Shown one piece after another: positions 14,776 to 29,143 of a stretch of 64,000 nucleotides of DNA. Location of the stretch: positions 62,001 through 126,000 of the forward strand of contig JAQBVJ010000002.1 of assembly GCA_027623235.1 (NCBI GenBank), in the 5' to 3' direction. Both the position numbers and the translations under genes were made by a program. This stretch comes from Planctomycetota bacterium (GTDB lineage: Bacteria; Planctomycetota; Planctomycetia; Planctomycetales; Planctomycetaceae). The notes under the pieces were generated by a model. That model made no database searches and was not told where the DNA came from. It saw only the letters and a list, made by a program, of their open reading frames with translations. Every line of letters starts with the position of its first letter. Position 1 is the first letter of the stretch.

Positions 14776-14780
14776 GGATA

Positions 14781-14832
14781 GTCGCCTTTCGCTCCGCGAA
14801 AGCAGCGCTACTTTCGCAGAGCGAAAGGCGAC
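14781..14832. repeat. Palindromic element A, copy 1
   Basis: A 52-base near-perfect palindrome: gtcgcctttcgctc (14781-14794) pairs exactly with gagcgaaaggcgac (14819-14832), and an inner gcgaaag/ctttcgc pair continues the stem after one mismatch, leaving an eight-base loop. A second, altered copy lies at 28154. It follows the TPR stop and may fold in the transcript 3' end. Confidence 0.85.
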
Positions 14833-14902
14833 ACTTGTTGATTCGCTGGCCTCAAGCAGGTTCCCGTCGTGAGGGTGAAAATCCGACCTGGTCGCGCGGC
14901 GA

Positions 14903-26507: not shown

Positions 26508-26597
26508 AGGTCAGGCTCTGCCTGACGAAGTTGCGAAGTGAATTTGGATTGGGGATTGCCGGAGCGTCGGGAAACACCGTCAGGCAGAGCCTGACCT
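26508..26597. repeat. Palindromic element C (20-bp inverted arms)
   Basis: aggtcaggctctgcctgacg at 26508-26527 is an exact inverted copy of 26578-26597. The two arms enclose 50 bases. Each arm is itself a short hairpin (gtcagg / cctgac with ctctg loop). It lies between the glpK and flavoprotein genes, downstream of the latter. No coding frame is associated. Confidence 0.85.
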
Positions 26598-26646: not shown

Positions 26647-28041
26647 CTACTTTGGAAACAGTTTGCCGGGGTTCATGATGTTGTGCGGATCGAGGCTCGC
26701 TTTGATCGCGCGCATCACGTCGACGCCCTCGCCGTGTTCCCGCCTCAACGCGTCGAGTTTTCCGATGCCGATGCCGTGCTCGCCGGTGCAGGTTCCGTCC
26801 AGGTCGAGGGCGTGCTGGACGAGGATCTCGCCATATCGTTTCGCCTCAGCTAACTCCGCTGCGTCGCCAGGCATGATCGGAAACACGACATGAAAGTTTC
26901 CGTCGCCGACGTGACCGAACAGCGGCGCCGGCAGCGAGCACGATTTCAGATCCTCTTTCGCGCGGCGAATACACTCGGCCAGGTTTCCGACCGGGACGCA
27001 GACGTCGGTCACGTACCCGACCGAACCTTCGCGAAGGCCAATAACGGAGTAGTAGCCATCGTGTCGGGCCTGCCATAGCCGGTCGCGGTCGCCCTCGCCG
27101 GTCGCTGCTCGAAAGTTGCGGACTCCGTGCGAATTCAGGATGTCGCGGGTCCGCGCGGACTGTTCCTCGACCGAGGTCCGGCTGCCGTGAAACTCAAAGA
27201 ACAGTGTCGGGGCGACTTCGTAGTCGAGGCTCGAGTAGCGGTTGACGGCGTCCATCTGAATTTCGTCGAGCAGCTCAATCCGGGCGATCGGGATGCCCGT
27301 CGACATGACGTCGATGACCGACGAGACCGCGGCTTCAATCGTCTCGAACGAGCACACCGCGGCAGAAATCGCCTCGGGGTTCGGAGCGAGCTTCAACGTC
27401 ACCTGCGTGATAATGCCGAGCGTGCCCTCAGAGCCGACAAACAGATGCGTCAGATCGTAACCGGCCGAGCTCTTCCGCGATCGGCCTCCCGTGTGAATGA
27501 TCCTGCCGTCGGCGAGAACGACCTGCAGGCCGAGCACCCTCTCCCGCATTGTGCCGTAGCGGACCGCGGTCGTGCCGGACGCTCGTGTCGCCGCCATTCC
27601 GGCCAGCGAGGCATCCGCACCAGGATCGATCGGAAAGTGCAGCCCGGTCCCCTGCTCTGCCAGCACAGCGTTCAATTGAAGCCGAGTCACTCCGGCCTGC
27701 ACAGTTGCGTCCATGTCCGGCACGCTGACCCGCAGCACCTTGTTCATTCGCCGAACGTCGATCGTCACGCCACCGTGAATCGCAACGACTCCACCCTCGA
27801 CCGCTGTGCCCGTTCCAAACGGAATGATCGGCACACGATGCTCGGCGCAGACGCGAACGCACGCGGCGGTTTCCTCGACGGTCTCCGGGAACACGACCGC
27901 GTCGGGAGGCTGCGGCTGGTGATGGGCCGAGTCCTTTGCGTGCTCGGCGAGAATGTCCTCGGCCTGAGAAAGCCGATCGCCAACGAGGGTGCGCAGAGCC
28001 TCGATGCACTCAGCGGTGCGGGATTGTGTGGTGCCGGCCAT
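26647..28041 (-). CDS. FAD-linked D-lactate dehydrogenase (cytochrome-type) / GlcD-like oxidase
   Basis: A 464-residue flavoprotein of the vanillyl-alcohol oxidase superfamily. FAD-binding PCMH domain: PIIPFGTGTAVEGGVVA (residues about 71-87) and HFPIDPGADASLAGMAATRA, GGRSRKSSAGYDLTHLFVGS; C-terminal FAD-oxidase domain: LFGHVGDGNFHVVFP and GTCTGEHGIGIGK. Such enzymes oxidise D-lactate, glycolate or related 2-hydroxy acids and pass electrons to the respiratory chain. The exact substrate cannot be fixed from sequence. No GlcE/GlcF partners are near, favouring D-lactate. ATG at 28041. Confidence 0.9.
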   Translation of the reverse strand: MAGTTQSRTAECIEALRTLVGDRLSQAEDILAEHAKDSAHHQPQPPDAVVFPETVEETAACVRVCAEHRVPIIPFGTGTAVEGGVVAIHGGVTIDVRRMNKVLRVSVPDMDATVQAGVTRLQLNAVLAEQGTGLHFPIDPGADASLAGMAATRASGTTAVRYGTMRERVLGLQVVLADGRIIHTGGRSRKSSAGYDLTHLFVGSEGTLGIITQVTLKLAPNPEAISAAVCSFETIEAAVSSVIDVMSTGIPIARIELLDEIQMDAVNRYSSLDYEVAPTLFFEFHGSRTSVEEQSARTRDILNSHGVRNFRAATGEGDRDRLWQARHDGYYSVIGLREGSVGYVTDVCVPVGNLAECIRRAKEDLKSCSLPAPLFGHVGDGNFHVVFPIMPGDAAELAEAKRYGEILVQHALDLDGTCTGEHGIGIGKLDALRREHGEGVDVMRAIKASLDPHNIMNPGKLFPK

Positions 28042-28153: not shown

Positions 28154-28289
28154 GTCACCTTTCGCTCCGCGAAAGTAGCGTTCCTTTCGCAGAGCGAAAG
28201 TGGGATAAGCTTCCAGCTTGCCGGGCCTGAAGATCGCAAGCTGGAAGCTTACGCCACGATAAATTCACAGCCTCGGAGCGAAAGGCGAC
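28154..28289. repeat. Palindromic element A, copy 2, split by element B
   Basis: 28154-28199 repeats element A (gtcacctttcgctccgcgaaag, then ctttcgcagagcgaaag) with a few changes, but its right terminus is replaced. About 85 bases later the expected end, gagcgaaaggcgac, appears at 28276-28289. The intervening DNA contains element B. The order suggests insertion into, or composite formation with, element A. Confidence 0.75.
28206..28251. repeat. Palindromic element B
   Basis: A perfect 16-bp stem: taagcttccagcttgc (28206-28221) with gcaagctggaagctta (28236-28251), 14-base loop. It sits between the two halves of element A copy 2, downstream of the flavoprotein's upstream region and of the MBL hydrolase stop at 28304. 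No T-run follows, so it is a dispersed repeat candidate rather than a typical terminator. Confidence 0.8.
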
Positions 28290-28303: not shown

Positions 28304-29143
28304 TCACACCCAGATTTCGAGCCGGTCTCGAAGTTGCTCGGGCACGCGTTTCTGGACGGCCCTTGCGAGCTCGTTTTCATGGTACCTCGTGCTGAAGTGG
28401 CCCGCGATGATCAGCTCATTCTGGAACTTGTCCGCGCGCTCGATGAAATCGTCGAGATGCATGTGACCGAATTTGTGGATCTTTTCCCGCCGGTGCTCCG
28501 GCCGGTAGAAGGTCAGCTCCGTGATCAGAATCCGTGCCTTGAATGCGGCCTCGCAATCGTCGAGGCCTTTGGGAGACGTGTCGCCGGTGTAGCAGACCAG
28601 CGGAAATCGGACTTCTTCCGTGACATTCTCGCCCGCCAGTTTGCGGTCGCGGATTTCGTTCTGAGGGAGTCCCTGCAGCTCCGCTTTGAGCTTGTTGCGA
28701 CGGTCCCAGACGACGTAGCCGACTGACGGCACGGTGTGAGTCGTTTTGAAAACCGTCACAACGTGCTCGCGCGAGAGTTCGAATTCGTCGCCCGGATTCA
28801 CGCCGATCAGCTCAACATTCATTCGACCCCGGTCGAGCCGCTGCCAGGCCTCCAGCAGAGTTCGCGTTGGGCCAACGATCTCGGCCGGAACGTAAACCGT
28901 CGGCGGCTCCATCTTCATCATCCGCCGCCGGGCGACGAAGGCCGGTAGAGCGGCCATGTGGTCGAGGTGGCCGTGAGAGATAAAGAACGTCGGCGTGCCG
29001 GTGAACGACCACGGGCTGCCGCCCAGGTCGAATCCGAGTTTCAGTTCCGGGATCCGCCAGTAGCTCTGCACAGCCGCCCGAGAGTACCCCTCGATCGTCA
29101 GTCCTTTGAACTCGCGTGTCTTCAGCGGCAGATTTTCGACCAT
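28304..29143 (-). CDS. MBL-fold metallohydrolase, RNase Z-like
   Basis: The 279-residue product has the metallo-beta-lactamase zinc motif [14 protein letters not shown] (H57, H59, D61, H62), a later [10 protein letters not shown] with metal-bridging Asp, and [12 protein letters not shown] near the end with the final His. This pattern matches the tRNase Z/ElaC branch, which matures tRNA 3' ends, but the proteins of this size in planctomycetes are annotated variously, and the long exosite arm is not obvious. Substrate is therefore open. ATG at 29143 with weak Shine-Dalgarno. Confidence 0.88.

Follow-up and report, generated by a model that had tools for sequence, protein, structure and literature searches.

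The window analysed here, a stretch of 64,000 nucleotides from a Planctomycetota genome (G000; 7.4 Mb in 253 contigs), holds a composite palindromic structure at positions 28154-28289. The structure lies in a 262-bp gap between two minus-strand ORFs, 26647-28041 and 28304-29143, which by eye resemble an FAD-linked oxidase and a protein of the metallo-beta-lactamase fold. A further inverted repeat (AGGTCAGGCTCTGCCTGACGAAGTT / AACACCGTCAGGCAGAGCCTGACCT) was seen at 26508-26597, just downstream of ORF 26647-28041.

Within the composite, a palindrome that we call A is interrupted by a second palindrome, B, and the right terminus of A comes only after B (Table 1). An earlier note on this DNA, made from its letters alone, had described this order of A-left, a perfect 16-bp stem of B and the A terminus, and both the sequence and in silico removal bear it out: deletion of the inserted cassette together with one copy of the flanking repeat leaves 52 nt, exactly the length of the uninterrupted A in the same window. 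When folded, the composite strand far exceeded its shuffles in stability (z -6.8), and none of 200 equalled it. What the note lacked was the 17-nt linker between B and the right end of A, GATAAATTCACAGCCTC, which ends in TCACAGCCTC and proved to be the key to the case.

Table 1. Features of the composite palindrome and of the empty target in the window
Feature	Position	Strand	Description
A-left	28154-28200		two sub-hairpins, CTTTCGC-TCC-GCGAAAG and CTTTCGC-AGA-GCGAAAG
Host A, left part	28154-28193	+	matches intact A (14777-14836) and about 40 genomic places
Sub-hairpin 1 of host A	28159-28175		followed by spacer 28176-28183
Sub-hairpin 2 of host A	28184-28193		5' arm 28184-28190, loop AGA 28191-28193
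Left copy of duplicated target	28191-28196	+	AGAGCG; best fit about 6 nt here
Inserted cassette	28197-28274	+	78 bp; AAAG, B and 17-nt linker; putative one-ended miniature element
Palindrome B (cargo)	28200-28257	.	GTGGGATAAGC...GCTTACGCCAC
Stem of B	28206-28221 / 28236-28251		16 bp, perfect; TAAGCTTCCAGCTTGC pairs with GCAAGCTGGAAGCTTA
Linker	28258-28274	-	IS1182-type terminal inverted repeat; minus-strand reading GAGGCTGTGAATTTATC
Right copy of duplicated target	28275-28280	+	GGAGCG
Right terminus of host A	28275-28289	+	GGAGCGAAAGGCGAC
Uninterrupted A (empty target)	14781-14832	.	same window

Palindromes A and B across the genome

Palindrome A is built from two small hairpins in inverted arrangement, CTTTCGC-TCC-GCGAAAG and CTTTCGC-GGA/AGA-GCGAAAG. 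It occurs at a minimum of 40 places in the genome, at least three of them interrupted; all copy numbers given here for A, B and the composite are lower bounds. Many A copies form the core of a longer palindrome whose arms resemble CCCAATGGCCCCAGAGTTGTG, a second feature absent from the earlier note. Palindrome B is met in three forms: inside composites, alone, and as a longer variant, B', with different outer arms. Stand-alone B, without linker or A, is present in a different genus as well as here.

Spread of the cassette within the genome

The composite was found at 16 sites of the same genome. It is not a chance match, the second copy reaching 201 bits (E 3e-52), with many further matches below it. 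Beyond A the flanks are unrelated: compared over up to 500 nt, they match one another only within A, save for a single 26-nt stretch that C102 and C67 share, so the composites represent separate sites. Left out of the count were C125 (left side missing), C216 (at a contig end, sharing its flank with C102), C174 (divergent on the right), the stand-alone B copies C184a, C14 and C184b, the B' copies (L059-L078) and the fragments L103 and L105.

In each of the 16 aligned copies the cassette starts with TGGGGTAAGC or a close variant, continues with B and finishes with the 17-nt linker, and its total length from that start is 74 nt in all copies except C156 (83 nt). The right end of A also follows the cassette in C175a, C45, C18, C51 and C185, and in C67 after a small tandem duplication, so the match at 28276-28289 is not a stray A terminus, the case by which the earlier note would have been refuted. 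On the left, A is not recognisable in C231a, C102, C162, C156 and C18.

The spacer within B is near-constant among composites and different in stand-alone B, which indicates that one cassette has spread. Because the host A copies differ between composites in their inner loops, and two cassettes (C51 and C185) sit in the first, and thus the other, sub-hairpin of A, the mobile unit is, on the evidence of these alignments, the cassette and not the A-B pair. The proposal of a hybrid unit that moves together is therefore upheld for B plus linker and fails for A plus B; that of a mobile palindrome lodged within another is broadly correct, the insert being B with an IS1182-type terminal repeat rather than B alone.

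A single insertion could also have been copied among the dispersed A copies by homologous recombination or gene conversion, with no further transposition. This would accord with the near-identity of the cassette across all copies, with the 50-150 bp or so that A copies have in common around the site, and with the identical 36-nt left part of A in C67 and C231b. We consider it unlikely, however, as C231a, C102, C162 and C156 have no recognisable A on either side beyond the flanking short repeat, two copies occupy the other sub-hairpin, and other genomes contain two-ended relatives whose targets are duplicated (see below).

Target duplication and boundaries of the cassette

The earlier note had suggested looking for target-site duplications around the insert. 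Across the 16 copies, the 6-mers on either side of the cassette agree within a copy at 77 of 96 letters, where shuffling gives a mean of 63.6 (p 2e-5; type I copies only, p 0.0015). Positions 7-10 show no within-copy excess (p 0.25), on which ground a duplication of 10 nt was rejected; a duplication of 3 nt, conceivable in itself, would not account for the excess at positions 4-6 (p 0.002). The left AAAG is retained in 14 of 16 copies and the right one in seven (p 0.02). The same AAAG precedes TGGGG in other B-family copies without any A, which makes it less likely that A supplied the whole of the left GCGAAAG. Taken together, the 6-mer agreement, the retention of the left AAAG and its presence before TGGGG elsewhere suggest that the cassette begins at 28197, instead of 28194 or 28201; the element is thus probably 28197-28274, between copies of a duplicated target of about 6 nt (AGAGCG / GGAGCG), a boundary picked after seeing the data.

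The linker and IS1182-family insertion sequences

Read on the other strand, the linker is GAGGCTGTGAATTTATC, and nearly the same sequence (GAGGTTGAGAATTT..) begins an insertion sequence in contigs C121, C29 and C45. The protein of this insertion sequence in the genome is an IS1182-family transposase (NF033551; 320 bits against a cut-off of 270). Its left end (GAGGTTGAGAATTTATT in C121, AAGGTTGAGAATTTATT in C45) comes immediately after the TTTCGCTCC arm of A, and in C29 an internally deleted copy with both ends kept lies inside A as GTCGCCTTTCGC-TCC-IS-TCC-GCGAAAG. In another genome, the insertion sequence at loci L168 and L174 begins the same way after GTCGCCTTTCGCTCC. Such ends are present on both sides at the IS1182 loci L189, L186 and L192, that of L186 being flanked by an inverted repeat, GTAGGGTCCGCTGT and ACAGCGGACCCTAC; about 54 of the 64 IS1182 loci scanned are without them.

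In the assembled genome we found no intact IS1182 element bearing these ends; the copy in C121 is without its right end, that in C29 is internally deleted and that in C45 runs off the contig. The cassette itself is without the left terminal repeat. At up to three mismatches to the end-plus-hairpin pattern, no two-ended copy was recognised in this genome (weak matches, C109 and C124), and the left-end pattern at three mismatches gave mostly about as many matches as its reversed control. In C45 (L042), the N-terminal part of IS1182 adjoins a composite directly, so that three elements are nested.

REPs and REPINs have been proposed to be mobilised as single-stranded hairpin DNA by RAYT or IS200-like tyrosine transposases, and an enzyme of this kind might have moved B or the composite. 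The resemblance of A and B to paired REPs, the ends of stand-alone B (near GTGG..CCAC, with no linker) and the Y1-type transposase genes of this genome (three of four matches above the cut-off) would suit such a route. No RAYT flanked by A or B was found, though: the loci around L035, L036 and L038 contain no A or B seed, and only near L037 is there an A-like hairpin, at a distance of about 1 kb. As target duplications and DDE-type terminal repeats also misfit this route for the cassette, we regard it as distinctly unlikely.

Two-ended relatives in other genomes

In a scan of named genomes, the junction was found in Planctomycetota MAGs; a clostridial contig with the junction looks like a chance match. 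The spelled-out linker pattern, ATAAATTC, matched nothing in relatives (eight of nine genomes gave no match), and the shorter pattern TCACAGCCTC does match in relatives. There, two-ended elements of about 99-260 bp, composed of GAGGCTGTGA, an inner palindrome and TCACAGCCTC, commonly lie in the loop of a CTTTCGC-GGA-GCGAAAG hairpin. Choosing on the ends alone, we obtained 36 distinct candidates in nine genomes (G025, G031, G083, G084, G085, G088, G090, G091 and G092). All counts below come from this ends-only set, an earlier selection of copies by duplication and stem scores having been circular.

The 3-nt flanks are identical in 24 of the 36 candidates (shuffled pairing: mean 10.9, maximum 19 in 5000) and alike at two or more of the three positions in 32, although the left flank alone counts as independent evidence, the right one having been part of the pattern by which the loci were retrieved. 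The arm of the inner palindrome beats all 60 shuffles in 26 candidates, and the palindrome itself varies by genome (GTGGGATAGGC.. in G084, GTAGGACGCCC.. in G083, GTAGGGTGCGTG.. in G091, and others). A stem around the element was scored in 19 of 36, no excess over the shuffled mean of 18.8; this test is uninformative because most flanks share one hairpin. Several G084 copies occupy GGA sites without a stem which, with the composites that have no recognisable A on the left, indicates that a hairpin is not strictly needed. The element at L165 and the insertion sequences at L186 and L189 lie between inverted flanks with no duplication.

These copies bear on a further reading, in which the linker and the right end of A belong together as an independent terminal module, the composite being an old and larger element with two halves that merely resemble A. 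The linker followed by GGAGCGAAAGGCGAC is indeed found without the left half of A at several places and in other genera. Yet the two-ended copies have the matching triplet, and often the CTTTCGC arm, on their left too, and C29 is a complete A split by an insertion sequence with TCC on both sides, which makes this reading very improbable. An assembly artefact of the metagenome bin, conceivable with 253 contigs, can be practically dismissed, as many contigs contain the composite internally, between different flanks, and independent genomes have related structures.

A probable miniature element with palindromic cargo

We interpret the composite, with a probability of about 0.77, as a non-autonomous, IS1182-ended miniature element that carries the REP-like palindrome B as cargo and has inserted in the hairpin loop of the REP-like palindrome A. 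An IS1182-type DDE transposase would join the ends of the element to the A hairpin, and repair would then duplicate the loop, in this genome probably together with three bases of the stem. Given the ends and the target that they have in common, an IS1182 transposase probably moved the cassette. The ancestor of this genome's cassettes may have lost the left terminal repeat, after which they would nevertheless have gone on spreading, and B would be a passive cargo that gains dispersal.

A broader and decidedly tentative extension is that IS1182-type miniature elements serve as general REP carriers in Planctomycetota, taking up whatever REP a genome has in quantity, placing it in the hairpin loops of others through a pathway that duplicates the loop, and thereby spreading REPs without a RAYT. 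The one-ended version in this genome would have kept spreading, its insertion re-forming an intact left hairpin in A because AAAG comes after the duplicated GCG. In C45, IS1182 lies at such a re-formed hairpin site.

Relation to known systems

Hairpin targeting by IS1182 relatives, the targeting of REPs by insertion sequences, REP families and MITEs are all already known. IS1272, of the IS1182 family, is reported to target stem-loops and remove them without duplication (PMC5678879), and similar targeting is described in PMC4923244. The elements reported here share with these systems the transposase family, present in this genome, and in many cases insertion into an inverted repeat, a large share of the targets being CTTTCGC-GGA-GCGAAAG hairpins, while several G084 sites have no stem. 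They differ in being non-coding miniatures with palindromic cargo and in duplicating the 3-nt loop (or about 6 nt), whereas the cases in the portion of PMC5678879 available to us delete the stem-loop with no duplication. Stem-loop deletion of that type does not describe our material, where most two-ended copies carry a duplication. The same paper drew possible pathways that duplicate the whole stem-loop or the loop only; the loop duplications here match the latter, and would be natural cases of a pathway that, in the available portion, is only drawn as a possibility.

Like REPs and BIMEs, including the GTAG-/CGTC-tagged families (in the part of PMC3733652 consulted), A and B are short, high-copy palindromes paired in inverted orientation. 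A begins with GTCG or GTCA and B with GTGG, and neither has a GTAG or CGTC tag, although several cargo palindromes of the relatives do begin with GTAG. In contrast to REPs and BIMEs, B is spread within a miniature element of the DDE type. The REP-targeting insertion sequences named in the accessible text of Tobes and Pareja (PMC1525189), which likewise insert in REP hairpins, are IS3, IS110, IS4, IS256 and IS5; the terms IS1182 and MITE are absent from that text.

With bacterial MITEs such as RUP, NEMIS and ERIC, as covered in the same part of PMC3733652, the elements have in common that they are short and non-coding, with terminal inverted repeats of an insertion sequence and target duplication. 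IS1182-family repeats stand at both ends in the relatives (nine genomes) and at the right end only of the own-genome cassette, and the duplication is about 6 nt in the latter and 3 nt, exact in two-thirds of candidates, in the former. Here, by contrast with those MITEs, the inner part is a REP-like palindrome that varies by genome, and the target is another palindrome. In the literature searched, we found no description of IS1182-type miniature elements with REP cargo or of natural loop duplications. The spread of REP palindromes without a dedicated transposase is treated as an open question in the consulted part of PMC3733652, and a DDE-type element offers a possible route. It would also explain nested palindromes in planctomycete intergenic DNA, which could otherwise be read as complex RNA elements.

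Further B-like palindromes

In the B' family of this genome, the core is B-like but its spacer is longer; outer inverted arms (GTGCTCTGTCAGGGCTGAA / TTCAGCCCTGACAAAGCAC) are present, as is a spacer of about 18 nt on the right side. G016 (L014) contains a similar unit. One stand-alone B (L057, G000:C14:9022-9084) lies in frame within a 700-aa open frame, spanning about 21 codons, and in this it is like the palindromic elements of Rickettsia, which occur in frame inside open frames. At L110 (G009:C73), B is followed by AAAAAATCACAGCCTC and then by a different hairpin (CATCACTCGGAGAGTGATG), an arrangement that suggests the same element type next to another REP.
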